From a virus: a stretch of 39,640 nucleotides of DNA. The translations under genes and the position numbers were made by a program. Positions within the stretch are counted from its first letter, which is position 1. Every line of letters starts with the position of its first letter. The notes beneath the pieces were generated by a model. It was not told the DNA's origin, made no database searches, and saw nothing but the letters and a program-made list of their open reading frames with translations. Location: positions 1 to 39,640 of IMG/VR virus record IMGVR_UViG_3300004151_000018; one strand, written 5' to 3'. This document shows positions 2,625 through 38,803 of the stretch, one piece after another.

Positions 2625-3503
2625 TCAAAGCTCCTCTTCCAGGCTGATCGGCACGCCATCCAAACGGAAGTTGGCGTATGTGAAGACGTCCAGTTCTGTG
2701 AAGTGCGCGAGGTAAGCGTTTCGCACCGCGTGCCGGGTGTCGCTGGGGTGCGGCCACCAGAAGAAGGGCTGGGCCACGTCCAGTTGACGCTGCATTTCCA
2801 GAAATGAGCCGAGCGCGTCATCGCGCGGCATGTGCGAGACCGTTCCCTTGAAGGTGCGCGGCTTCCGCCGCACCCGGCGGTGTATGGTGCCGCCGTCCGA
2901 TTCCTGCGTGATGGCCCGGCCACGGTAGCCGTATTGCGCGCCATAATCCGGGTTGTAAGGAAAGCGCAGCGCGGACGCCAATTCCAGCAACCCCGACTGC
3001 ACGAATCCGTCGGGGTTGGCCGGGTCGCTGATCGTGACCCGCGCCGACAAGGCATAGCCCTGGGTCGGCGTCAGAGTCGGTCGATACCAGGGATAGCCCT
3101 GGATTTCGTCAGGCGTGTAGGTCCGGTCCCACCAGCGCCCGCCGTCCCAATCGACCTGGGAGTCCGAGAACACCGACGGCCACACAGGTTGCGGCCCGCT
3201 GTCCCACATGAGGTCCGTTCGACCAGCCCCGTAATAGACGGCGGTCTGGATGGTCGCGTACAGGGAGAGGTTGTGAGGACCCAACACCAGCAGACCCAGC
3301 TTGCGCGGGCGGGCGAAATCAATGTCGATCACCGTGGCGGCAGCGGACAGACCCACAGACCGCCAGGGATAGGACAGCGGCAAGCGCTTCAGATTGGCCG
3401 CCGGATAATCCGTGACAAAGCTTCCCGCCACGAAATCCGCTTCTGGCGTCCAGCGCGGAAAGCCGACAATGGCCGTCGAGGGAGCGGTGGACAGGACGGA
3501 CAT
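2625..3503 (-). CDS. Putative tail-tip protein
   Basis: This 292-residue protein begins MSVLSTAPSTAIVGFPRWTP. It has many aromatic residues (WPSVFSDSQVDWDGGRWWDRTY, PFFWWPHP) and predicted beta strands, typical of tail-tip and baseplate components. The N-terminal part includes a discoidin-like pattern, in which a parametric rewrite of a position (DYPAANLKRL, LGLLVLGPHNLS) gives a jelly-roll look; this is a resemblance only. It is encoded between the presumed hub protein and small tail genes, downstream of the tape measure, where distal-tail and hub proteins normally lie. The start ATG is at 3501-3503, three bases after the preceding stop. Confidence 0.55.
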   Translation of the reverse strand: MSVLSTAPSTAIVGFPRWTPEADFVAGSFVTDYPAANLKRLPLSYPWRSVGLSAAATVIDIDFARPRKLGLLVLGPHNLSLYATIQTAVYYGAGRTDLMWDSGPQPVWPSVFSDSQVDWDGGRWWDRTYTPDEIQGYPWYRPTLTPTQGYALSARVTISDPANPDGFVQSGLLELASALRFPYNPDYGAQYGYRGRAITQESDGGTIHRRVRRKPRTFKGTVSHMPRDDALGSFLEMQRQLDVAQPFFWWPHPSDTRHAVRNAYLAHFTELDVFTYANFRLDGVPISLEEEL

Positions 3504-3506
3504 CAG

Positions 3507-5069
3507 CTATCTCCACACGGTGATTTTGGTTTCCAGCGACAGCAGGTCGATTTCAAGGGCCGAGACCCGCGCCAATGGGGCCGATGCAAAGCCGTAGCGC
3601 GGGTGCTCGACACGCACGACCGCGTTGAGATCGAGCGTGTCGGCCAGCTCGGGCGTCAAAATCACCGTGATGTCGTGCCGACGACGACGGGCGCCGCCCA
3701 GACCGTGCCGCCGCTGGGCTTCGGTCGTCGCATCGGACGCGGTCGCAAAGGCGGTGTCGGCGCTGTATTCGTTTTCGGGGGCGGTCACAGACGCCGGATA
3801 GGCCGTGTCCAGCCATTCTTTGGAGAGCCGATCCGCACGGTCGAGCGCCACCCCCGCAAGGCTGCTCTTGTCCGCAACGCCATAATTGCGGGCGTAGCGC
3901 AAGCGTGTCAGATCGAAGGGGCGCCCGCCGTCCGCGCGGGAGGTGAAGACTGGCTCGATGCTGATGATGTCGATGTCATTCAGCCGCCCAGGGCGGTCCA
4001 ACCCCAAAACTGTGAGGCAGCAGACCGGATCGCCGCTTGGCAGATCGACCCGCGCGATGCGCCACAGGCCAGCCCGATCACGCCAATAGCCCGCGCCCAT
4101 GCTGGACGCGGTCAGGTCCAGCAGGTCGCGGATCACGCTCCCGTTGCCATCCACCCACCACCCCAACTCGGCGGGTTGCTGGGCATCCAGCGCGGTCACG
4201 TCAGCCGCGCTGATCGTCGCCGGATCGACGCCTGCGCGGCTGACCAGCACGCGACGCCAAATCTGCGCGCCCGTCCGATCCGCAGCGCCGCCGCCGGATC
4301 GCGCGGTGACGCGCACAGTGCCCGCAGGCGTTGACCCCAGCCGGACATAAGCCGGAGTTGTGGCGTCACCCAGGAAATAGTCCCACTTGCCAGCCGCTGG
4401 CGTTGTCGCCTGCAGGTCGGCCAGCGTGGCGCGCGCCGTGCCGCGCGTCAGCGGAGAGCCGTTGTCTTCGACCGCGTCCAGCAGGATCGCCGACACGGCC
4501 TTGTCGGCGACGCACAGGATCAGAGAGGAGGAGCTCGCCCAAGGCGCCGGGCAATTGAACGCCCGACCCTCCAAAACCGGATACCATTGGTCCTTCAGCT
4601 CGGTCCCGCCTTCCAGGCCGGTCGCACCGACGTTGGTCCCCAACCACCGCCGCCCGGCGATCTGCTTGTCCAACGCCAGGGCGAAATCGTCGAGCACCCG
4701 CAACGACACAACATCCCCAACCTGGGGCGTCCCCAGACGACCGGAAAATAGGGACCGGCGCGCTGACCACGGCGAAGAAGGCGACGGCAGCACCCAAAGA
4801 GAGAGAGAGCCGCCGTAGGCGTCCACGCCGTCATTTTCCAGCCAATCGCAAAAGCCGTCTGCGTTGTGCAGTTCCACGACGCCGTAATCGTTCGATCCGG
4901 CGCCATAGGCGAGGCCGTCCGCGAAGATTTCCCGACGGATGCGAGACCCACCGCTCAGGCGATCAAAGAACGGACCTGGAGCCGTAGGATGCATGTAGGG
5001 TTCAGACGCCACCCGGATCGGCTGACCGCCGACTTTGGGCGTGGCTTCGACGCACAAGACCGTCATCAC
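3507..5069 (-). CDS. Putative tail hub/baseplate protein
   Basis: This 520-residue protein directly follows the tape measure gene, and its ATG overlaps the tape measure stop (ATGA at 5066-5069). The N-terminus is PYMHPTAPGPFFDRL followed by beta-rich segments such as SNDYGVVELHNADGF and RRSLFSGRLGTPQ. These resemble the start of tail-hub proteins that fold back on the tail tube axis. The C-terminal 100 residues contain a helical part, then a beta domain with TVILTPELADTLDLNAVVRV, similar in style to hub domain III/IV strands. Position and length fit the hub (lambda gpJ N-terminal region or T5 pb3-like role), but no diagnostic motif is visible. The assignment is by context. Confidence 0.5.
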   Translation of the reverse strand: MMTVLCVEATPKVGGQPIRVASEPYMHPTAPGPFFDRLSGGSRIRREIFADGLAYGAGSNDYGVVELHNADGFCDWLENDGVDAYGGSLSLWVLPSPSSPWSARRSLFSGRLGTPQVGDVVSLRVLDDFALALDKQIAGRRWLGTNVGATGLEGGTELKDQWYPVLEGRAFNCPAPWASSSSLILCVADKAVSAILLDAVEDNGSPLTRGTARATLADLQATTPAAGKWDYFLGDATTPAYVRLGSTPAGTVRVTARSGGGAADRTGAQIWRRVLVSRAGVDPATISAADVTALDAQQPAELGWWVDGNGSVIRDLLDLTASSMGAGYWRDRAGLWRIARVDLPSGDPVCCLTVLGLDRPGRLNDIDIISIEPVFTSRADGGRPFDLTRLRYARNYGVADKSSLAGVALDRADRLSKEWLDTAYPASVTAPENEYSADTAFATASDATTEAQRRHGLGGARRRRHDITVILTPELADTLDLNAVVRVEHPRYGFASAPLARVSALEIDLLSLETKITVWR

Positions 5070-8000
5070 GCCGCCTTCTTGTCACGGAACGCCGCCCGCG
5101 CGGCTTCGGAACGCACGGTGTCGCTGACCGTATCCAAGCGGGATGCGAGACGGTCGCCGACCATACCGGCGGTGCTGTTGCCACGCCGCAAGAGCCGGTT
5201 CTGCTCTTCCAGCAGGGCGTTTTGCCGCCGCAATTCGGCCAAAACCGCCGCGCTGTCCCCACCCGACGCCGGGACCGGGCGCGCGGGCGGCAACAGCGTT
5301 TCCGGCGCCGGCCTCTCGGAGACGAACGGAAGCGCCCCGTTGTCGTTGATGTAGTCAATGGTTGCAGCGCCGCCGATTGCGGCGGTGGCGCGCGCGGTCA
5401 ACACCCCTTCGCCACCAGCCAACGCAATGGCCCCCCCACCCGCATAGCGGGCCACCACGCTGTCGACGCCCCAGAGGCCGTTCCCGACCAACCCGCCATC
5501 TTCGTAAGCCCCGACGATCCCGCCCGTTTGGAAGCCGTTGACGCGCCAGCCCTGGCCCAGCTGGGTGAGGACCGTGCGGGCGATGGTTTTCACGCTGTCA
5601 GACTGCTGGACGATCCACGCCTGCCAGCCGCCGCCGCCGAAGTCACCCATGTAGCCGGTCTTCAAGGCCAACTGCATGTTGGCGCCGACCTGGTCGGTGG
5701 CCCCCCATTTGCGCGGGGTGGCCACGATCTGCTCCATGCGCGACTGTTCAGTCGCCGCGCTGTCCAGCGACTTCAGGGTCGCGTCCATGGACTGGAGATA
5801 GGTCAACTGCGATTGAGCCGTGGTCAACTGCCGATGCGCCACGGATTCCATGCTGCTGAAACCTTCCTGCACCTCCAGGAAGTCGCCAGGCTTGGCCGAT
5901 GCCCAATAGTCCTTGCTGGCTTTCAGGTAAGCGTCGGACAGTCCAGAGAGCTTGTCGGCGGCGGCGAGCGATTCAGCGTCGGTCGGCGTGTTGTCGTTGG
6001 CGATGGCCAGGGTGTCCCGCCACTGGCGCTGCGCTTCGAGATAGCGCTGCTCCAAGGTCAGCGGGCTGTAATCGCCGAGGAGGTTCGACAGCCGCGTCTT
6101 TTGCAGGGTGTCATGCAGATTTTGCCATTGGCTCGCCAGACTGGTGGTGGTGGACAGCGACGACGACAGCACCGAACGCCAGGATTGCACGGCGCTGTTG
6201 CGGGCTGTCTGCGCCGCTTCTGCCGCCGTATCCGACGCCGTTTTGTTCAGATCGGTGAGCGCGGCGGTCGCGGCGTTCACCGCGTCGGGGGTGTCCGCGA
6301 ACGCGCGCACAATGTCCTGCAGGCTGGCGTCGGTGATCGACCCGCTCTTGACCAGCCCCGACATCGAGGCGGTGAGTGTGGCCGTCACCTTGGCCGCCTG
6401 GGTCGCGCGGTCGGCGCCTTCCGGCCAGAGCGCGTTGACGTCCTGCAGCGCCGTCTTGTAGCTGTCGATCAGCGCGACGGCGCTGTCGTAGCCCTCTTCG
6501 CCCTTGGCTTTGCGCAGGCCGGTGTCCAGAGACTTGCCGTAGCTGACTTGCTCCTTTTTCAGCGCGTTGCCAAAACCCTCTTGCAGCTTGGCCGCCAACT
6601 CGTCGCCGACGATCCCGACCGTCGAGAAGGCTTTCACCAGATCGGTTGACGCCGTGGACCATTTGCCGCGCAGCTGCTCGACAGCCTTTTGCTCGGGCGA
6701 CGTTTCGACGGTGACGCCCGCAACTTCGTCCAGCAGGCGCTTCTTCACCGCGCCCAGCGCCAGCATTTGCTGCATGGCCCCATACAGACCATCCGGCACC
6801 GCCTGCCCAGCGGCGACGTAGGCTTGGGACGCCCGCCGCATATCGGCGGCGAGCGCGTCGAAATCCTTTCCGATGGGCGAAAATGTGTTGTTTCCCAGCG
6901 CAACGACGATGCCGTTCAGTTCAGCGACGCGGCTTTTCACCAACCCGACCGCGTCAAAGCTGTCCTGAAGCTGGGCCGACCGCCGATCTTCGGTCGCGCC
7001 AGTCGCTTCGAAGCCCCGAGACGCGCCAAAATTCACCGCGTTGTCGCGGGCTTGCCGGAGGGCGTCCGGGATCGACGCGCCCGCCGTCGTCAGGCTGCGG
7101 ACAGCCTGGTCCAGGTCGTCGATCACCGATTGGACGTCGGAGGTGAGCGTCAACCCACCCAACCCCACAGCCGAACGGGCCAACTCGTCCACCGTGCCGC
7201 CGACGCCGTCGGTTCCGACGCGCATCGAGCCGATCAAAGCCCCGGTCAACGTGGGATCGGCCTTGATCGCGGTGGACAGGCTGGCGACCGTGGCGTTGAT
7301 GTCCTGCGCGGTCAGGCCACGATAGGCGCCACCGCCGCCCGCCGCTTGCACCGCCTGGTCGCCGATGGTCCCACCAGCGCCGACACCGGCGCCGACAACC
7401 CCGCTGAAATCATTCGGCGACATGTCGCCGTAATCGGCGCTGACCGCCGGCGCCGTCCCTTTGACGCCGGTCAGGCTTTCGATCATTCCGCTGATCGACG
7501 GCCCAACGGTCGAGGCGATGGCCGACAAGGTCGAGGCGACCGCCGTCATGCTGAGACCGGCCACACCGGCAAGCGCGGCGGTTTGCTCCTGCGTCGCAGC
7601 GGCGGAGCTGGCCTGCCAACCCGCAAAGCTGGCCAGCGTGTCGGTGACAGCCGCCGACAGGTCGGACACCGTGTCCGCGATGGCGGAGAGAGCGCCGCCG
7701 CTGCCCCGGCCCGTGTCACCCCAGCCCCCGCCATAGGCGGAATCGCGTCCCGCCGTGCTGCTGTTGGTCTCGCCATGCCCGGCGTTCTCACCACCATGAC
7801 CAGACGCAGCGTCGCCATCATCAAAACCCAGCAGGCCGGTGGCGGGATTAACCCGACCAGAGGTGCCCAACGCCCGTTGCACCGCCGCCAGCTCATCCGA
7901 CCCGCGCAGGTGGATCAGGGTGTCGTCGCGCCCTTCGCCCAGACTGGCCAGCATCTGGGCAGTTTCGTGGGCGTTCCAGATGCGTTCGCCGCCCTGAAGG

Positions 8001-11000
8001 TGGACCAATTCCGGGCCGGATTTGCCGAGCAACGCCATGCCGTCCCGCAGCTTGGCAGCTTCAGGGCCGTCTTCGCCGACAACCGCCAAACCCGACGGAG
8101 CCGACACCGTGCCAGAGGCGAAGCCGGGCAGCTTGGCCCCGGCAGACACCTTGAACACGGACTGGGCGTTGTCGACGAAGTCCAGCAACGATTTGCCCAG
8201 CGCATTTCCTGCATCGACGCCGGATTGAAACTGCGTGACCAAGTCAGACAGGCTGGAGCGCAACGCCCGTAGCTGGGTCTGAAAGCTGTTCGCGAATTCC
8301 AGGTGCGAAAGCATTTCGTCCAGGCTGGTCGCCGTCTCGTGCGCGATCGCGTAAGAGATTTCCGGGACGCCAGACCGCATGCCCTTCAGCAGTTCAAGCG
8401 CCGCCTGTTCCGCGCTCTTGTCTTTGGTGTCGATGAAGCTGTCGCCCCGCCCGGCCGTCAAGTTCAGGCGGGTCATGATGTCGTTCAGACCCTTGGCGAT
8501 CTTGGCGGCGTCGGCGTTGAATTTGGTCGGGTCGCCGTTGTTGTCCGCGTCGTAGCTGCCCAGAGCGTATTTGCCGTTGCTGCCCAACGTGATGTTGGAG
8601 CGGCTGTAGGCAGTCCCGCGATCCTTGGCCCCCGTGACCGCCGACAGCAGCGCGCCCGCCGCCATCATGACACCGCCAACGATCTGGCCGCCGGGGATCA
8701 TCGCGGCGACGCCACCCGCCGCTGTCAGACCCCCGCCGATCTTCTGGCCGGTGGTGGCGCCCTTCTGGGTGGCCATCAGCGCGCCGCTGGCGATCCCGCC
8801 GATGCCTTGCAGCAATTGCCCCCATGACGGGTTCCACCCACCGATTCCCTGCGCATCGACACCCGGCATAGGACCGACAAAATTAGCGGACGGACGAGCG
8901 CCTTCGGCCTGACCAAACACCTTGGCGTCGAGCCAGCTTCCACCCGCGCCCTTCACGGTCGGGGCATAGCTGGTCGAGCCGTCGGCGTTTCGAAGCACCT
9001 GCTTCCCGCTGCTGCCAACCGAGGACGTTCCACCAACCCCAAGGAGGTCAGAAAAGAAATCCGACGCGCCGCCGAGCATCTTTTGCAGGCCGCCAAGGAA
9101 GGTGTCCGCGCCGCTTGTCGCGGCGTCGCCGAACGCAGTCGCAGCCCCAGCGGCGTCGCCCATCGGCTTCGTCACACCAAGAACGCTGTCCACCAGCGCC
9201 TCTTGATCCTGCGTCAGCATCTGAACGCTGACCGCCTGCGCCTTCCCTGCGGTGATCGCGTCAAACTGGACCTGCAACGCGCTTTCTTGCGCCGCCGTGA
9301 CGCCCGTGGTCGCCTGGCTGGCGTCGGCGATCCGCCCGCCAAACTGCCCGACGTCGCCGCCCACGGCCTTCACCGCCTTGCTGAATTCGCCCATGTAGGA
9401 CGTGGTTTCAGCGGGCAGCGCGCGCCCCCGATCAACCCAATCCGTCATGCGGGTCGGCCCGGCGTTGTAAGCCCCCGCCGCCTTGACCCAGTCCCCGCCG
9501 AACTGACGACCCAACATCGCAAGGTAGCGGACGCCGCCCTGGACGTTTTGAAGAGTGTCGGAGGCGTCCACGCCCAGCCATTTGGCCGTGCCGGGCATCA
9601 ACTGCATCACGCCCTGCGCCCCGGCGGAGCTGGTCGTAACCCGGCCCTGCTGATCGTACTGGCGGAAGTTGCTTTCGATCTTGGCCACCGCCAGGACGAC
9701 TTCTTCCGGCACCCCTTGCGCCCGCGCTTCCGAGCGGAGCGCGTCCACCACCTGGCCACCGTCCTTGATGGCGACCGGCAACGGCAACCCGCTGGTTGGC
9801 GCGGCGGCGGGCGGAAGAGCCGCCAAAGCCCCCGCCGCCGACGCACCGGCCACCTGCACCCACAGGGCGTTTGCAGCGGATGCCCCCAGCCCGCTGTTCA
9901 CGGACCCAAGGATGCGGGTCAGTTGACCGGGGTCGTTGGCGGGTTTGGGCGCGTTGTCGTTCGCCGTGACGACGCCGCCCGACATGAGCTGCGTCAGTGT
10001 GCCGGATAGCCAGGTTTCGGCGGGTTTGGTGATGACGGAGCGCACGAACAGGCGTTTCAGGTCTTCCGCCAGAGCCTTTCCGGCTTCGCTGGCCTTCTTT
10101 GCCCCGACCACCACGTCTTCAAACGAGCTGGTGATCGGCTGGGCGATGTTCGCGGCCTGCTGTGCAGCGTCCTGCAACTGGCTGTTCACGCGAGCCAGTT
10201 CGCCCTGTTGCCGGATGTAGGCTTGGGTGCCGAGGTCGGTGAGGTCCGCCCCCTTGGCCCGCAGGTCGTTGCTGGTCTGGAGGATCGCCACCGCCCGCGC
10301 CCGTTCGGCGTTGGATTGGCCAAGCATGGCGTATTCGGCGTTGGCGAGTTCAACGGCCTGGCGCTGTTCCGCCGCCATCTGCGCAAATTGCTGGCTGCGC
10401 TGCGCCAAATCACGGGCCAGGACGCCTTGACCGAGCGCGTTGAGTTCCCCAGCGTCGCGGGTGGGGTCCAACCCGCGCTTGCGCGCTTCCGCCAGCACTT
10501 CGTTGGCCAGCGTCGCTTCCCGCGCGGCGGCGGCGCCCTTGCCCCAAGCGTCCGCCAGACGGAGGGCGTCGGCGGCTTGGTCGCGCAGGGTGGCGGAGAA
10601 CTGAGCCGCCTGGACCGCGCGCTGGGCGTCATCCATGGCGCGCAGGCGGGACACGATGGCGTCATACGGCTCCACACTGCCGCGCGCCGCTTCGGTCAGC
10701 GCCTTTTGCTGGATCTGCGCGTCGTGCACAGCCGCGCCCGAAACGCCATAAGCGCGGGCCAAAATCCCATTCCCGGCGATGTCCGCTTCCGCCGCCCGCC
10801 GGGCGTCATCAACCGCCAGCGTCAGATCCCGCAGGGCTTCCCGTTGGCGGATGATGCGCAGGGTGATCGCTTCCGCGCCCGAAATGTTGTTCTTGGCGAT
10901 TTCGTCTTCGGCCCGCAGGTCGGCCTGCGCCAAAGCGCGCTGCACCGCGTTGCCGCGCAGGGCTTCGGACTGTCGGTGGTAGGCGCGCGTCAGCTCGTCG

Positions 11001-13642
11001 ACATAGTCGATGGACTTCTGGTTCACGCCGGGGTCGACCGCCGCCGGCGCCAGTTCCGGCAGGTCGTTTGCCGCGCGGACGGACGGAACACCGCCTTGCA
11101 CCGTCGAGATCGTCCGGGTGATCGCGGCCAAGCGCTTTTCCAGGGCGGCGATGTCATCCTGACGTCGGTTGATTTCGACGCGGGACTGCGCGGGATCGAG
11201 CAGCCTGCCGGTTTCCAGCCCCTGGATCTGAGATTTCGCGTCAGCGATCTTCTGCCGCAGCGCCGCCGGATCGTCGTCGCCAAACAGCGCGTTCGCGAAC
11301 AACCCGCCGGGCGAGTAACGCAACACCGGGTTGGCGTTCAGAACCTTGCCGATTCCGCCCAAACTTGGGTTTTCGATGAAATCGGCCAGGGCTTTGAAGG
11401 TGTCGGACAGAGCGACGGTGACGCCAATGGTGATCTTGGAATTCGCCGCCGTGTCCACCATCCTGTTGAACTGCACGCCGAGATCGTGCATGGCGGTGCC
11501 CGCTGGCGACAGGGAGTCCTTCCGCAACCCGTCAAACCGCCGGTGCAGCGCGCCCAACACCACGCCCAGGGCTTCGGCCTGTTTGCCGTGTTCGCCCATG
11601 ACACGGACCGCTTCGACTTCCGCCGGAGTCAGAAAGCCGATGGACTCCTGGAGCTGCAGGATCGCCGGTTGGCCTTCGGTCTTCAGCTTGACCAGTCCCT
11701 TCACGGCGTCATCAACCGACTGTCCCAGCCCCGCCGCCATGTCCGACCCCAGGACGGCCAGCTCCCGGCCCAGCGCGGCGCTGACGCCGCGCGTGCTGGC
11801 CAGCATCTTGCCGACGGCGAAGGATTCCGAACGCCCCGCGCCCCCTTCGTAGAGCGCCTTCGAGACGTCGCGCAGTTGCACGGCGGTCGCCTGCGCTTCC
11901 GTGCCATAAGCCCGCATGGTGACGGTGAGTTCACGGGTGTGCGCGCTGTTTTCCACCGCCCGCGCGCCGATCAGCGCCAAGCCGCCCGCAACAGCCGCCG
12001 CCGTCAGCACAATCGCGGTCATGGGCGTGGCGAGCAGCGCCATGGCGCGTTCCAGCCCACCGACCGCCCCGACCGCTTGCGGCCCCTGTTGCAACAGGGG
12101 AAGGAACAGGCCCTGGCCAGATCCGACCTGGACGGCAAAATCCTGAAACTGATAGCTGAGGTTGGTCACTTCGTGCGCGGCCAGCTTCGTTTTGCTGGCC
12201 GATGCGTCCAAAACGCCATGCTGGCGTTTCAGCCCAGCCGTCAGCTCGTCAACCCGCCCCACCACCTGCGGATCGCCCTTGGCCGCCGCGTCGTTCAGCA
12301 GCTTCAGATCTGCGGACAAGGCCCGCATTTTCGCGGCGGCGGGATCGGCCCTGTCCATAAGGGATTGGAGCGCGGCTTCTTCCTTCTTCGCGGCGATGGC
12401 CGCCGGTGACAGCGCCGCCGTCACCCGATCAATGTCGGCAGCCAGCTCCGCTTCCGACCGCCCGGCGGCGACGGCGCCGGCGCGCACGTCGGACAGGGCC
12501 TTGTCGTAACGGACCTGGGCGGCGTGGGCGGGGTCCAGCGCGTTCATCACGGACCCATAGGAGGCGGAAAGACGCGCGTTTTCCGCCGCTGTTTCCGCCG
12601 CCCGCTTCTGCGCCGGGTCGTTGGCTGCCGCATAAGCGGTTCGCAGGCGGTTGGCTTCGGCTTCTTCGACCCCGACCCGACGGATCATGGATTCGAGATC
12701 AACCAGTCCCGCCTCATACTTGCGCTGCGCCACATCGACCAGCCCGAGCGACACGCGGTAAGCGTCCAGCTCGTCAGCGCCAGCCGCAAACGCCGCATTT
12801 AAGTCATCCAAGCGCTGGGCGGACCCGTCGTCGCCAAAGGTGATGGTCCCGGCGCCGCTGACCGCCCCGGTCGTGGCGTAGCGGGTTGGCCCAATCGTGG
12901 CGGTGTTGGCGGTTTGACGGGACAGACCAACGGCGTCATTGATGGACCGTTGAGCCGCCGAAACGCCGCGAAGGCTGGCTTCCAGCCCCTTGGCGGCGGC
13001 GGCCCATTCGGAAAAGCCGGTGTGGCCCGCCCGGAAACTGGCGTCCACCGCTTGCAACGCCTTGGCGACGCCATACACCCCGTTCGACGCGGTTTCCGCC
13101 ACAGCGTAAACGGCGGACATGCCGCTGGCCCAGCCACCAACCGCCGCCGACGCGGCGTTCGCGCCTTTTTCCAGATCGTCGAACAGCTTGTTGTTCGCAG
13201 CCCGAGCGCGTTCGGTTGCCCGTTCGATCAAGGCCAGAATGTTGGCGCGCTGCGTCTCTTTGTCGGCGGCAGAGGCCGTGCTTTTTTCCAAAGCCTCCAA
13301 ATGACGACGGTATTCCGCCGTAGCCTTTGCGATCAACAGGGCTTCGCGCTGGGTGCGGTCATATTTGTTGGCCAGTTGCTCCACGGACAGGGACTGGCGC
13401 GTGACGCGCTCGGTCGTCCGTTCGACCGAAGCGCCATAGTCGTCGGTGGCCGTCTTACCCTTCGCCATCCCGGTGGCGAGCGTGTCCCCCGCCTTTTTGC
13501 CCGTCTGGCCCAGGCGATCAACATTCCCTTCGGCGACGGTCGCCGCCGCGCCCAGCCCGGTGACGTTGTCGGTCGCCGTCTTGACCCCGGCGGAAACCCC
13601 GTCTTTGAAGCCGACAGAAAGTTCTTCGACGTTTTCGGTCAT
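5066..13642 (-). CDS. Tail tape measure protein with internal lytic transglycosylase domain
   Basis: This 2,858-residue protein sets tail length, plugs the tail tube and crosses the cell envelope on infection. Residues 1-600 are Ala/Glu-rich coiled coil followed by the family hallmark VTNLSYQFQDFAVQVGSGQG, LLQQGPQAVGAVGG and a hydrophobic segment near residue 540. Around residues 1305-1400 is a soluble lytic transglycosylase domain: catalytic Glu in AKIESNF (about 1322), then GVMQLMPGTA and AGAYNAGP. A second hydrophobic stretch lies near 1620-1660. Around 1850-1890 is a GEDGPEAAKL and GGERIWNAHET motif, normally found near the end of such proteins, yet about 950 more residues follow and end in GVDSVVARYAGGGA (near 2720). 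At roughly 1.5 angstroms per residue the tail could be up to about 0.4 micrometres. The ATG at 13640-13642 has a GAGG 8 nt upstream. Confidence 0.93.
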   Translation of the reverse strand: MTENVEELSVGFKDGVSAGVKTATDNVTGLGAAATVAEGNVDRLGQTGKKAGDTLATGMAKGKTATDDYGASVERTTERVTRQSLSVEQLANKYDRTQREALLIAKATAEYRRHLEALEKSTASAADKETQRANILALIERATERARAANNKLFDDLEKGANAASAAVGGWASGMSAVYAVAETASNGVYGVAKALQAVDASFRAGHTGFSEWAAAAKGLEASLRGVSAAQRSINDAVGLSRQTANTATIGPTRYATTGAVSGAGTITFGDDGSAQRLDDLNAAFAAGADELDAYRVSLGLVDVAQRKYEAGLVDLESMIRRVGVEEAEANRLRTAYAAANDPAQKRAAETAAENARLSASYGSVMNALDPAHAAQVRYDKALSDVRAGAVAAGRSEAELAADIDRVTAALSPAAIAAKKEEAALQSLMDRADPAAAKMRALSADLKLLNDAAAKGDPQVVGRVDELTAGLKRQHGVLDASASKTKLAAHEVTNLSYQFQDFAVQVGSGQGLFLPLLQQGPQAVGAVGGLERAMALLATPMTAIVLTAAAVAGGLALIGARAVENSAHTRELTVTMRAYGTEAQATAVQLRDVSKALYEGGAGRSESFAVGKMLASTRGVSAALGRELAVLGSDMAAGLGQSVDDAVKGLVKLKTEGQPAILQLQESIGFLTPAEVEAVRVMGEHGKQAEALGVVLGALHRRFDGLRKDSLSPAGTAMHDLGVQFNRMVDTAANSKITIGVTVALSDTFKALADFIENPSLGGIGKVLNANPVLRYSPGGLFANALFGDDDPAALRQKIADAKSQIQGLETGRLLDPAQSRVEINRRQDDIAALEKRLAAITRTISTVQGGVPSVRAANDLPELAPAAVDPGVNQKSIDYVDELTRAYHRQSEALRGNAVQRALAQADLRAEDEIAKNNISGAEAITLRIIRQREALRDLTLAVDDARRAAEADIAGNGILARAYGVSGAAVHDAQIQQKALTEAARGSVEPYDAIVSRLRAMDDAQRAVQAAQFSATLRDQAADALRLADAWGKGAAAAREATLANEVLAEARKRGLDPTRDAGELNALGQGVLARDLAQRSQQFAQMAAEQRQAVELANAEYAMLGQSNAERARAVAILQTSNDLRAKGADLTDLGTQAYIRQQGELARVNSQLQDAAQQAANIAQPITSSFEDVVVGAKKASEAGKALAEDLKRLFVRSVITKPAETWLSGTLTQLMSGGVVTANDNAPKPANDPGQLTRILGSVNSGLGASAANALWVQVAGASAAGALAALPPAAAPTSGLPLPVAIKDGGQVVDALRSEARAQGVPEEVVLAVAKIESNFRQYDQQGRVTTSSAGAQGVMQLMPGTAKWLGVDASDTLQNVQGGVRYLAMLGRQFGGDWVKAAGAYNAGPTRMTDWVDRGRALPAETTSYMGEFSKAVKAVGGDVGQFGGRIADASQATTGVTAAQESALQVQFDAITAGKAQAVSVQMLTQDQEALVDSVLGVTKPMGDAAGAATAFGDAATSGADTFLGGLQKMLGGASDFFSDLLGVGGTSSVGSSGKQVLRNADGSTSYAPTVKGAGGSWLDAKVFGQAEGARPSANFVGPMPGVDAQGIGGWNPSWGQLLQGIGGIASGALMATQKGATTGQKIGGGLTAAGGVAAMIPGGQIVGGVMMAAGALLSAVTGAKDRGTAYSRSNITLGSNGKYALGSYDADNNGDPTKFNADAAKIAKGLNDIMTRLNLTAGRGDSFIDTKDKSAEQAALELLKGMRSGVPEISYAIAHETATSLDEMLSHLEFANSFQTQLRALRSSLSDLVTQFQSGVDAGNALGKSLLDFVDNAQSVFKVSAGAKLPGFASGTVSAPSGLAVVGEDGPEAAKLRDGMALLGKSGPELVHLQGGERIWNAHETAQMLASLGEGRDDTLIHLRGSDELAAVQRALGTSGRVNPATGLLGFDDGDAASGHGGENAGHGETNSSTAGRDSAYGGGWGDTGRGSGGALSAIADTVSDLSAAVTDTLASFAGWQASSAAATQEQTAALAGVAGLSMTAVASTLSAIASTVGPSISGMIESLTGVKGTAPAVSADYGDMSPNDFSGVVGAGVGAGGTIGDQAVQAAGGGGAYRGLTAQDINATVASLSTAIKADPTLTGALIGSMRVGTDGVGGTVDELARSAVGLGGLTLTSDVQSVIDDLDQAVRSLTTAGASIPDALRQARDNAVNFGASRGFEATGATEDRRSAQLQDSFDAVGLVKSRVAELNGIVVALGNNTFSPIGKDFDALAADMRRASQAYVAAGQAVPDGLYGAMQQMLALGAVKKRLLDEVAGVTVETSPEQKAVEQLRGKWSTASTDLVKAFSTVGIVGDELAAKLQEGFGNALKKEQVSYGKSLDTGLRKAKGEEGYDSAVALIDSYKTALQDVNALWPEGADRATQAAKVTATLTASMSGLVKSGSITDASLQDIVRAFADTPDAVNAATAALTDLNKTASDTAAEAAQTARNSAVQSWRSVLSSSLSTTTSLASQWQNLHDTLQKTRLSNLLGDYSPLTLEQRYLEAQRQWRDTLAIANDNTPTDAESLAAADKLSGLSDAYLKASKDYWASAKPGDFLEVQEGFSSMESVAHRQLTTAQSQLTYLQSMDATLKSLDSAATEQSRMEQIVATPRKWGATDQVGANMQLALKTGYMGDFGGGGWQAWIVQQSDSVKTIARTVLTQLGQGWRVNGFQTGGIVGAYEDGGLVGNGLWGVDSVVARYAGGGAIALAGGEGVLTARATAAIGGAATIDYINDNGALPFVSERPAPETLLPPARPVPASGGDSAAVLAELRRQNALLEEQNRLLRRGNSTAGMVGDRLASRLDTVSDTVRSEAARAAFRDKKAA

Positions 13643-13652
13643 GCGAGGGGCC

Positions 13653-14390
13653 TCAACGCAGGGGGGTGATAATCAAGGCAGGCGATTCAACGCGGGTGCC
13701 TTGACGCTTCCGCGTTCGGCCCGCCCGCTTGCCCGTTGTCCAAACCTGCTGATTGCGCAGGATGTACTGACCGGGGAAATCCATGGTCCAGACGCGCTTG
13801 ACGGACACGACGGAGCCGAAACGCGACCGGATTTGCTTCACCGCGTCGTCAAACAGCCCCGGAGCGACCGAAAACGACAGCGACGTGCCGCCGATGAGCT
13901 GGACGTCGACCTTGCGGCTGTAGGGCGCCATGTTGCCGATCACCACCTGGGTCACGGTGGCGGTCAGCAGCGCGGGGTCGAACTGGGCGGCGGGCACGAA
14001 CTTGCCGCCGTCCGTCCGCCCGCCTTCGGTGATGCCGAAATAGAATCCGTCCCGGAAATGCGCCGTCTTGCCCGTCGACGGGTTCAGCGGGATACCGGAT
14101 CGGGCCGGACTGCGGTTGATGAGGAAGGAGAGGGCGAAGGTGCAGACCGGCCCGAGAATCCCGAACCGATAAACGATGCGCCCGCCATCCGCCGGACGCA
14201 CCGCCTCTTCCGCCGCCCCTTCAACCCCGTCCACGAACCGCCGGTAGCGGGGCGACGCCCGCCCAACCGCGATCAACTGGTCGCGTTCGCGCTTGGCGAT
14301 GGCGGCCAGATGGCGCGATTGAGCTTCGGGCGACAGGGTGCGGTCGACGAAGACCAGCAGGCGTTCGTTGAAAGCGGCGGCTTTGGCCAT
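13653..14390 (-). CDS. Putative tail-associated protein between chaperones and tape measure
   Basis: This protein of 245 residues starts MAKAAAFNERLLVFVDRTL, with the ATG at 14388-14390 two bases after the GT-extension stop. The N-terminal third is helical and charged (SRHLAAIAKRERDQLIAVG), and the rest is beta-rich with YRFGILGPVCTFALSFL and a basic C-terminus (TGKRAGRTRKRQGTR). Homologous-looking proteins occur in alphaproteobacterial siphophages next to the tape measure, but I cannot name the family. A role in tail initiation or as a tail-tip ring is possible. The basic tail might contact nucleic acid. The longer open frame upstream is not used, as it overlaps the chaperone frame. Confidence 0.55.
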   Translation of the reverse strand: MAKAAAFNERLLVFVDRTLSPEAQSRHLAAIAKRERDQLIAVGRASPRYRRFVDGVEGAAEEAVRPADGGRIVYRFGILGPVCTFALSFLINRSPARSGIPLNPSTGKTAHFRDGFYFGITEGGRTDGGKFVPAAQFDPALLTATVTQVVIGNMAPYSRKVDVQLIGGTSLSFSVAPGLFDDAVKQIRSRFGSVVSVKRVWTMDFPGQYILRNQQVWTTGKRAGRTRKRQGTRVESPALIITPLR

Positions 14391-14392
14391 CG

Positions 14393-14788
14393 TCAACCTG
14401 CTTCCTGCTTTTGCTGCGCTTCCGCCGCCCGTTCTGCCCACCAGGCGGCATAGACGTCGTCCATGGCGCGCAGCAGACGGAACAGCACGGCCAACGGGTG
14501 GCCATGCTCGACGGCGTACAGCCGCACGGCGGTCCATGGGATGTTGGACGGCAAGGCCGGACCCATGCCGCCGCCCCGCCAGGACCGTTCATCGGTGAGA
14601 GCGAACCAGGCGCGCCACGCCCATTGCAGCCACGGTTCCACCGCCGCCGCTTCGCCCTGTTCGGTCAGCTGGGCGACGATGGCGGCGGCGGTTGCGGGAT
14701 CCTCTTCCGCCAATTCTTCGGCCAGGTCGGCGAGCCGCCCCTGGTCGAAGGATTTTCGGCCGAGGTGATCCCGCAGCGCGGCGGTCAG
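14393..14788 (-). CDS. GT-type tail assembly chaperone extension (read by -1 frameshift)
   Basis: This is the second half of a frameshifted chaperone. The frame is open from the slippery heptamer at 14788-14794 to the stop at 14393, giving 131 extra residues after residue 140 of the upstream gene, for a 271-residue fusion. It begins LTAALRDHLGRKSFDQ, then LADLAEELAEEDPATAAAIV, a tryptophan-rich WLQWAWRAWFALTDERSW and a helical C-terminus. There is no good ATG: the first possible independent start is a TTG at 14711-14713 without a clear Shine-Dalgarno, which supports expression by frameshift. In lambda, gpG and gpGT bind the tape measure and tail tube subunits and are absent from virions. Confidence 0.75.
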   Translation of the reverse strand: MTAALRDHLGRKSFDQGRLADLAEELAEEDPATAAAIVAQLTEQGEAAAVEPWLQWAWRAWFALTDERSWRGGGMGPALPSNIPWTAVRLYAVEHGHPLAVLFRLLRAMDDVYAAWWAERAAEAQQKQEAG

Positions 14789-15207
14789 TTTCCCTCCGCG
14801 TCCGCCAGTTCGCCCGCCGTCGCTTCGGTGGCCATGGTGGCGGCGGTGAAGGCCAGATCGAGCAGCTTGCGGCCACGCGGCTGCTGGATCAGGTCACAGA
14901 ACTCGTTGAACGACAGCGCGGCGCCGCCGATGACGCAGTCCCGCACATCGACCAAGGAGTGCTTAACCAGGCACCGCGCGTTGATGTCACGGAGCTGGCT
15001 GAAGGGAATGCGCTTCGTGTCGTTGTTGAAGCCCTTGGCGCGTTCCCGCTGCATGCGGGTTTGCGCGTCGTTGAACGCGTCGTTCAAGCCGCGCGTTTTG
15101 ATCTTCAGCGGACGGTCGGGATCCGGATGGACCCAGCGGCCTTCGGTGAAGACGTCTTCGTCCACCAGCAGATCGTCCAGGGCGTTGAGATTCAGGGCGT
15201 CGGTCAT
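14785..15207 (-). CDS. Tail assembly chaperone, gpG-like
   Basis: This 140-residue protein precedes the tape measure by two genes and ends at a -1 frameshift site. It is mixed alpha/beta, starting MTDALNLNALDDLLVDEDVF, with TEGRWVHPDPDRPLKIKTRG and LSFNEFCDLIQQPRGRKLLD. Chaperones in this position usually form oligomers on the tape measure before tube polymerisation. The ATG is at 15205-15207. A strong stem-loop lies about 45 nt upstream and separates this gene from the tail tube operon segment. The function rests on gene order and the frameshift; sequence similarity to gpG itself is not obvious. Confidence 0.75.
   Translation of the reverse strand: MTDALNLNALDDLLVDEDVFTEGRWVHPDPDRPLKIKTRGLNDAFNDAQTRMQRERAKGFNNDTKRIPFSQLRDINARCLVKHSLVDVRDCVIGGAALSFNEFCDLIQQPRGRKLLDLAFTAATMATEATAGELADAEGN
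14788..14794 (-). promoter_or_regulatory. Programmed -1 ribosomal frameshift site, GGGAAAC
   Basis: On the minus strand the last codons of the upstream chaperone read GAG GGA AAC TGA, so the heptamer G GGA AAC is in exactly the X XXY YYZ register for tandem -1 slippage. Lambda uses G GGA AAG at the same point of its G/T genes. Slipping gives CTG ACC GCC, which opens the 131-codon second frame. A short CCGC/GCGG inverted repeat just downstream could act as a weak stimulator; I did not find a long stem. Confidence 0.85.
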
Positions 15208-15343: not shown

Positions 15344-15580
15344 TCAACGGGCCAGGAGGCGCCGATGCTGGTCCGGGATTTCGATGCGGATTGCCCGGTC
15401 AACCCGCACGACGATCAATTCACCGTCATTCTGCAGAATGCGGCCATCCGGGCCGGTCACATGAGCGCGGTACCAGCCTTCGACATCGTCGACTTCGACC
15501 ACGAACGGGATTTTCGCGCCGGTTACAGCGTCCACGACGCTGGCAAAAACAGCGCCGGGATCCCCTGCTTTGATGTGCAT
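15344..15580 (-). CDS. Small protein following the tail tube gene
   Basis: This 78-residue protein (start MHIKAGDPGAVFASVV) has a compact beta pattern, with KIPFVVEVDDVEGWYRA and GELIVVRVDRAIRI, and looks like a small all-beta domain. The start ATG is 9 nt after the stop of the tail tube gene, so it is probably translated from the same message. I do not recognise a family. Small genes at this place can encode tail decoration or tube-capping Ig-like domains; whether this one does is unknown. Confidence 0.5.
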   Translation of the reverse strand: MHIKAGDPGAVFASVVDAVTGAKIPFVVEVDDVEGWYRAHVTGPDGRILQNDGELIVVRVDRAIRIEIPDQHRRLLAR

Positions 15581-15589
15581 TCGCCCCTC

Positions 15590-17086
15590 CTAACGGACGA
15601 ATTCAAACCGGCAGAGGATCAGCTGAACGCCGGTCAAAGGATCCATGGAGGCGGTCATTTTGACAGGCAGTTTGACGTCCTGATTTTTGCCGCTGACCGT
15701 TGGATCACCGTCGCGGGCGATCAGACGCGGCGCTTCCCACACCATGGCGTGGCACTTGTCCTCACGGCCCAGGCGCATATTCACCGCACGCGCGACACCC
15801 GCATCCAGGTCCTGCAACAGTTCCGCGTTGCCGAAAAAAGTGTCCAGATCGACCGACACGTCGAACGCGCCGTCTTCCACATCCACCGGACCCATGGCGT
15901 TCGAATCACCGTCGGACACGGCGTCGCGGGCGCGCAGGTTGTTGTTGGTCGCGATCTTGATGGAGGAGGCCCAGTTGGGATTTCCCAGCGCCACCCCGCC
16001 ATACCCGATACGGCCGCAATTCGCGCTGAAGGCCATGACCGGATAGTCGGCGGATGCCGGAGCCGGATCGGGCGTGCTGTCGAGCGAGACGGTTCCGGGC
16101 GCGCCGCGCATGCCGATGAAGGCGATGGACCCGGCGGCCTTCTGTTTGGCCGAACCGCCGATTTCCAGCGTGTTCACCCGCATGCCGGATTGGGCGATGT
16201 AGGTCGGGACCGCCTGGCCCATGAAGCCGCGCTCCAGGGTGACGCCGCGTTTACCCACCCCGTTCACGATCATGTCGGGGATGAAGACGCGGATCGTCTT
16301 GCCCGCGCCGGTGTCCGCCGCCCAGGCGGGGGGCAGATTGTCCAAGGTCAGCTTGTGGGCGTCGATGCCGACCACCCGCCCCCAGGCGTTCGTCGGCCCG
16401 GTGTTGAAACGGTAAGAGGCCCCGGTGTCACCCACCTTCAGCCAGATCCCGACGCGCAGGTTGAGCGTGGTGAAGTCCAACCCGCCCGCTTCCGACGTCA
16501 AGCCGTCGGCCACCGCCCTGATGTCACCCGCAACCCCCTCAAAACCCACCACCTTCATGCGGGCTGCGGCGGCGGGAACCGCTTCGTCCATCAGCCCCGC
16601 CCCTGCAAAGGCGGGAGCGGTGGCGCTGCCGGTCGTCACCTTGGCCAGCTTGTTCCGGTTGGCGGCGGTGCCAAAGCCAGTGAAGCGCACCAGGTGCCCG
16701 GACACAAAGGCCGGACCCGCCGCCACCGTCACCACTTGCGTCGCCGCGTCGACCGCCTGGATCACGCTGTCGGCGACGCCGTCATTGTCGCGGTACGGGG
16801 TGTTTGACCAATCGTTGCAGAGAGCTGAGATGATTTCAGCGTCCAGCAGGCTGCCCGGCGTCGGGTAGTGCCATTCGATGCCAATGGACCCGTTGTTGTC
16901 CTTGCCGACCACCGTCGGATCGCTGTTCATCCGGTCATCACGGATGTCGTCGGATTCCACAGTGACCGGCTTCGACGACAGGCCGATGGAGGTGACGCGC
17001 TGGGCGAGCATGCGCGGGTTGGCTGGCGTCTGCCCAAAGGTCGTTTCAGCGACCCCGGTCAGGCGGACGCGGTTGGAAGTTGTCAT
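15590..17086 (-). CDS. Major tail (tube) protein
   Basis: This 498-residue protein begins MTTSNRVRLTGVAETTFGQTP, the usual start of phage tail tube subunits of the Phage_tail_3/TTP type (short N-terminal arm, then TTFG). RMLAQRVTSIGLSSKP, then EWHYPTPGSLLDAEIISAL and further beta strands follow, and the C-terminus GVQLILCRFEFVR is a beta strand. It forms the hexameric rings of the tail tube around the tape measure. At nearly 500 residues it is longer than many tube proteins (about 200-300), because of an inserted region around residues 100-250 that may be a surface domain. It follows the tail terminator block, and a terminator-like hairpin sits 28 nt before the ATG, which has AGGAG about 10 nt upstream. 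Confidence 0.85.
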   Translation of the reverse strand: MTTSNRVRLTGVAETTFGQTPANPRMLAQRVTSIGLSSKPVTVESDDIRDDRMNSDPTVVGKDNNGSIGIEWHYPTPGSLLDAEIISALCNDWSNTPYRDNDGVADSVIQAVDAATQVVTVAAGPAFVSGHLVRFTGFGTAANRNKLAKVTTGSATAPAFAGAGLMDEAVPAAAARMKVVGFEGVAGDIRAVADGLTSEAGGLDFTTLNLRVGIWLKVGDTGASYRFNTGPTNAWGRVVGIDAHKLTLDNLPPAWAADTGAGKTIRVFIPDMIVNGVGKRGVTLERGFMGQAVPTYIAQSGMRVNTLEIGGSAKQKAAGSIAFIGMRGAPGTVSLDSTPDPAPASADYPVMAFSANCGRIGYGGVALGNPNWASSIKIATNNNLRARDAVSDGDSNAMGPVDVEDGAFDVSVDLDTFFGNAELLQDLDAGVARAVNMRLGREDKCHAMVWEAPRLIARDGDPTVSGKNQDVKLPVKMTASMDPLTGVQLILCRFEFVR

Positions 17087-38662: not shown

Positions 38663-38762
38663 GACGCAAGCCTCCTCTGACGGCATTGCCGACGCAGGGA
38701 GGCTTTTCATGACCGCCCTGGCGCCGGGGGCTGAAAACCTGTCAGAGGCAGGCCGGAATGTT

Positions 38763-38803
38763 CCCCTTGCGGGTATTGTATTATCCGACCCCCGGCAAAG
38801 GGG
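38763..38803 (-). promoter_or_regulatory. Candidate early promoter with operator-like inverted repeat
   Basis: CCCCTTGC at 38763-38770 and GCAAAGGGG at 38795-38803 form an inverted repeat. Between them, on the minus strand, is GGATAATACAATACC, with TACAAT or GATAAT as a possible -10 for the leftward early operon, about 100 bp before its first start codon. No good -35 is visible. A repressor or activator site is a reasonable reading; this is low certainty. Confidence 0.4.

Follow-up and report, generated by a model that had tools for sequence, protein, structure and literature searches.

A GGGAAAC slip site conserved among Azospirillum phage loci points to a lambda-type -1 frameshift in a tail assembly chaperone gene

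The slip site of the G/GT frameshift in phage lambda is GGGAAAG. The lambda fusion product is made at a low level, with a requirement of approximately 30 G per GT (PMC5009743). In Burkholderia phage KL1, a frameshift is predicted at a GGGAAAC heptamer that abuts a TGA codon, with products of 142 and 264 amino acids, and one gene precedes the tape measure gene (PMC3483164). The slip site of phage Colossus is also GGGAAAC (PMC3556154), and the same heptamer is used by the archaeal virus HCTV-1 (PMC5009743). In E. coli, A_AAC slips far less readily than A_AAG (PMC5009743). The AAC codon is decoded by a tRNA-Asn carrying queuosine, and reported shifts at UUUAAAC are about 2% with this modification and 1% in its absence (PMC6787027). 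A literature search, mostly of freely readable journals, identified no report of frameshifting in phages of Azospirillum.

The DNA analysed here (the window) is the whole 39,640-nucleotide stretch of the viral record IMGVR_UViG_3300004151_000018. Its arrangement of reading frames and the comparison with relatives indicate that it comes from a long-tailed phage of the Azospirillum type, whose tail assembly chaperone gene very probably undergoes programmed -1 ribosomal frameshifting. The features of the slip site are as follows.

15207-14785, minus strand: open reading frame of gene G, from ATG at 15207 to TGA at 14787-14785; 140 amino acids, ending in ...ADAEGN.
14794-14788, minus strand: slippery heptamer GGGAAAC in the register G_GGA_AAC, with TGA adjoining.
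14787-14785, minus strand: 0-frame stop codon TGA, which abuts the heptamer, in the context TGAC.
14788-14393, minus strand: -1 extension (T) of 131 codons (LTAALRDHL...QKQEAG), followed by TGA at 14395-14393.

The first open reading frame ends with GAG GGA AAC TGA. The original prediction, that GGGAAAC lies in exact X XXY YYZ register before this TGA, was correct from the sequence, and its sum of a 140-residue first part and a 131-codon second frame agrees with the open reading frames, giving a G-T fusion of 271 residues. The -1 frame opens 33 codons 5' of the heptamer. The first ATG, GTG or TTG in this frame is a TTG at 14713, located 25 codons beyond the junction, with a Shine-Dalgarno pairing of -1.5 kcal/mol compared to -3.7 kcal/mol at the start of gene G; the second frame is thus without a good start of its own, as had been proposed. 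Sites of the X3Y3Z form (Y = A or T) were present 66 times in the 79,280 strand positions of the window. A scan for in-register X3Y3Z sites with a nearby stop codon and a long -1 extension returned the GGGAAAC site as the only one in the window. The conservation of the site in relatives, described below, is decisive in showing that the heptamer arrangement is real and not a product of chance, and at the level of the sequence the frameshift arrangement at 14794-14788 is confirmed. A Shine-Dalgarno-like stimulator 5' of the site was considered and rejected, as the anti-Shine-Dalgarno pairing in the preceding 21 nt was no stronger than in synonymous shuffles.

The site is flanked by tail genes, of which the following are the nearest.

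15590..17086, minus strand: tail tube protein gene, 5' of gene G (Phage_tube_2, 6.1e-33; phrog_290, 1e-46).
13653..14390, minus strand: gene of 245 amino acids that separates T from the tape measure gene (phrog_16336, a family with no assigned function, 5e-58).
5066..13642, minus strand: tape measure protein of 2858 amino acids (TMP_2, 6.2e-20; SLT, 1.7e-19).

Located 5' of the tail tube gene are the terminase, portal, protease and capsid genes, a head-tail adaptor and a tail terminator. The gene order in the window is tube-G-T-x-tape measure, which is the same order as in KL1, and with the tube and tape measure genes around it, the site sits where tail chaperone frameshifts are expected. The tape measure protein is very long, with its transglycosylase (SLT) domain at residues 1303-1408. 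Gene 42 of Azospirillum phage Cd occupies the same place as the 245-amino acid gene of the window. Elsewhere in the window, positions 38715-38796 (minus strand) matched the Rfam family sRNA-Xcc1 (RF02221) with 61.1 bits, above the gathering score.

Close relatives were collected by searches with the first protein, which identified loci in Azospirillum genomes, IMG/VR contigs and phage Cd. Following the removal of duplicates, the set comprised 10 distinct phage or prophage loci, with first-protein identities of 40-64%. The GGGAAAC heptamer was identical and in register, with a -1 extension, in all ten. Gene 41 of phage Cd (64% identity in G and 46-47% in T) has the unchanged heptamer followed by TAA in place of TGA. 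The most divergent relative (L012) has kept GGGAAAC at its position 3390; the adjoining stop codon is lost, and the 0 frame continues for 17 codons. The start codons in the -1 frame differ in place from relative to relative, and in one locus (L015) the frame opens just 10 codons ahead of the site, with the first start at +51. The residues LTAALRDxL are conserved between the heptamer and the first possible start. This constraint ahead of any start argues that translation enters the -1 frame at the heptamer rather than initiating within it. Over ten codons of the -1 frame after the site, the variable columns numbered 2, 4 and 8 at the first, second and third codon positions, and the ratio of synonymous to non-synonymous differences was 124:76 in the -1 frame, compared to 43:183 and 8:188 in the other frames. 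It had also been anticipated that the second part would be overlooked or split off, which is what the existing annotations contain: the GenBank record of phage Cd annotates gene 41 only and leaves its T part bare, and the records of several relatives, such as phages M6 and PaMx25, list the second part as a gene in its own right.

A wider set was assembled from viral contigs searched with the T part alone, together with twelve KL1-related phage records, and comprised 38 distinct loci at 80% identity. The search was blind to the heptamer. An in-register heptamer was present in 38 of the 38 loci (23 GGGAAAC, 13 AAAAAAC, one CCCAAAC and one GGGAAAG), although these loci are mutually related and therefore not independent. 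The x3AAAC form, with A_AAC as the slip codon, was found in 37 of them, in phages whose hosts are alpha-, beta- or gammaproteobacteria. Heptamer loss in relatives that keep both frames, which had been put forward as the observation that would count against the frameshift, was seen neither in the ten Azospirillum loci nor in the 38 wider loci. A 0-frame stop codon lies directly 3' of the heptamer in 28 of the 38. Its absence from the other 10 rules out the adjoining stop codon as a universally essential part of the site.

The G part matched phrog_19222 (9e-38), a family that carries no name, and showed no sequence match to any named chaperone family. The AlphaFold model of G had a pLDDT of 84.8, and its best match in BFVD was the pre-tape measure chaperone of Caulobacter phage CcrColossus (K4K660; probability 1.00, E 1.3e-3, TM 0.54, with 17% identity in the fold alignment), a phage that likewise uses GGGAAAC (PMC3556154). 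The top BFVD matches were mostly named tail or pre-tape-measure chaperones. A search of the PDB with the same model gave no fold match, with proteasome entries at chance level. As the TM value is moderate (about 0.5), the fold match is suggestive rather than final, and the modelled G part resembles tail chaperones in its fold. The T part matched phrog_3817 (tail chaperonin, 2.1e-12) and phrog_8233 (tail assembly chaperone, 5.8e-7), the latter of which covers both parts of KL1 gp19, and a profile match to the T part of KL1 gp19 was also obtained (E 5.7e-7). Against PF23812 (Phage_TAC_18), the T part scored 18.2 bits (E 0.0027) and relatives 21.7-22.4 bits, under the curated cut-off of 27 bits. 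The T model was of low confidence (pLDDT 63). By sequence profile, the T part belongs to the tail-chaperone families phrog_3817 and phrog_8233, and the sequence relatives found are chaperones of the KL1/TAC_18 type.

The RNA that follows the slip site is predicted to fold, a feature absent from the original prediction.

14680..14780 (approximate), minus strand: RNA hairpin with outer stems GCG/CGC and then GCGGGATC/GATCCCGC, and more stems within.

The GCG stem starts about 8 nt after the heptamer and an 8-bp stem starts 13 nt after it. The minimum free energy of the window hairpin was -55.7 kcal/mol. Relative to shuffles that preserve the protein and the codon use, its z was about -3.2, and 1 of 1000 shuffles was equally stable. 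The signal in the window is less distinct, as several stretches of the G part are also near z -2.5. Across nine Azospirillum loci, the values after the heptamer ranged from -2.1 to -6.2, and the hairpin stretch was the strongest, or among the strongest, of the gene in most of the nine. Folding of the sequence after the heptamer gave long hairpins in nearly all of the close relatives. The first MAFFT alignment had the window among its sequences and yielded a poor consensus (-4.2 kcal/mol) because of a 12-nt insertion inside the window hairpin, which still folds and is longer; the consensus was refolded without the window. In the eight gap-free sequences, 88% of the cells in the consensus pairing were standard pairs, compared to at most 51% when the pairing was slid, and five pairs were altered on both sides. 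A scan of Rfam around the slip site gave no match. The divergent relative L012 has no hairpin beside the site; a strong structure starts there from -1 codon 19 (z -5.4), just past the 0-frame stop codon. In the wider family, the mean z was -1.8 after the site compared to -0.2 at the gene end, and the structure was weak in many distant relatives. When the 38 loci were divided by the adjoining stop codon, the mean z was -2.2 in those with it and -0.5 in those without it.

From this arrangement we infer that slippage occurs, at a rate in which the hairpin and the stop codon would each have a role, in a gene with a chaperone function. Most ribosomes would read GGA AAC TGA, stop and release the 140-amino acid G protein. 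A minority would slip one base back, with the tRNAs on GGA and AAC (Gly and Asn) re-pairing on GGG and AAA; CTG would then be read next, and 131 more codons would be translated to give the 271-amino acid G-T protein. The hairpin, about 8-13 nt downstream, is the probable slow step, and a stop codon occupying the A site may assist. By analogy with lambda, G would form a coat on the tape measure protein and G-T would bring in the tail tube protein through its T part, and with such roles a low G-T:G ratio matters. A low rate of slippage is expected, since tRNA-Asn pairs worse with AAA, and the efficiency may be low given that A_AAC is a weak slip codon in E. coli. A weak slip codon, with the hairpin and the stop codon acting as pauses, would fit a low G-T:G ratio.

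Other explanations of the two frames were considered. The T frame could be a separate gene with its own start, at TTG 14713 or a non-standard codon, perhaps through translational coupling to the stop at TGA 14785. A TTG is indeed present in the frame, and the second gene is annotated apart in M6 and PaMx25; however, the selected residues after the heptamer precede the TTG, the positions of possible starts vary by relative (L015 in particular), the Shine-Dalgarno pairing is slight, and the perfect conservation of the heptamer is left without explanation, and we consider a separate start very improbable. Transcriptional rather than ribosomal slippage might yield a shifted product at the related AAAAAAC sites, which contain a run of six A residues. 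The runs in the window are only three long, the majority of the distinct loci (23 of 38) have GGGAAAC, and a tandem X3Y3Z register with a downstream hairpin suits slippage of the ribosome, making a transcriptional origin extremely unlikely. A one-base change would fuse both frames, as would be the case for a single ancestral gene split by a sequencing error or a recent frameshift mutation, but the recurrence of the arrangement and the heptamer in independent genomes and isolated phages refutes a broken gene, for which the probability is practically nil.

A further alternative accepts the frameshift and treats the hairpin as a by-product of a GC-rich coding sequence, with no role. In L012 nothing matching folds beside the site and the hairpin lies farther downstream, which is consistent with this, as is the weak structure of many distant relatives. 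The stability of the hairpin against shuffles that preserve protein and codon use in the nine loci, the mean near zero at the gene end and the loss of standard pairs on sliding all argue against it, and a hairpin without a role appears unlikely.

In addition to the probable programmed frameshift, a second structured RNA was identified ahead of the gene.

15333-15208, minus strand: structured non-coding leader, directly 5' of gene G, with a putative role.

All 11 distinct loci have the leader ahead of G, and matches to its pattern outside the Azospirillum lineage look unrelated. Seven aligned loci shared more than 60 invariant columns, and the RNAalifold consensus contained 28 pairs, of which 5 had compensatory changes. 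There was no family match in Rfam. Judged by its alignment, the leader is a strongly conserved, previously undescribed structured RNA. A 78-amino acid open reading frame (15344-15580, minus strand) between the tail tube gene and the leader had no family match (best E 0.25), and in phage Cd the leader lies directly 3' of the tail tube gene. In each of the 11 loci, the leader loop, TTTGGTCGG or variants of it, could form 8-9 pairs with the sequence just 5' of the start codon, and in the window this target adjoins AAGGA, a likely Shine-Dalgarno sequence. The obvious guess is that the leader is a translational control element that could pair over the ribosome-binding site of G. A double control by RNA, in which the leader loop would set the amount of G and the A_AAC slip, assisted by the hairpin and the stop codon, would set the G:GT ratio, is a tentative and rather doubtful proposal.

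These results correct the annotation of a little-studied Azospirillum phage lineage whose T part goes missed. They also indicate that one chaperone family retains A_AAC, mostly with an adjoining stop codon, across alpha- to gammaproteobacterial hosts despite the shiftier A_AAG (PMC5009743), and the part that a weak slip codon, an adjoining stop codon and a hairpin would have in a low G:GT ratio becomes directly testable.

Of the described systems, KL1 gp18/gp19 shares the GGGAAAC heptamer with its adjoining TGA and has parts of similar length (142/264 amino acids compared to 140/271 in the window). The T parts are related, and both have a single gene separating T from tape measure, although KL1 gp18 and the window G have no recognisable sequence relation, and the intervening gene has 145 codons including the stop in KL1 (gp20) compared to 245 amino acids in the window. 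Pseudomonas phage 73 and Kakheti25 group with the KL1 system, and the Kakheti25 heptamer is AAAAAAC. The match to lambda G/GT that had been claimed in position and geometry held in part: in both, a -1 slip occurs or is predicted at an X3Y3Z site late in the chaperone gene, with the tube gene on one side and the tape measure gene on the other, whereas the window differs from lambda in its A_AAC heptamer, adjoining stop codon, conserved hairpin and the 245-amino acid gene before the tape measure gene. As KL1, Colossus and HCTV-1 all have GGGAAAC, the gene in the window joins an already known kind, and, by its sequence, the site is a lambda-type G/GT frameshift and not a new mechanism.
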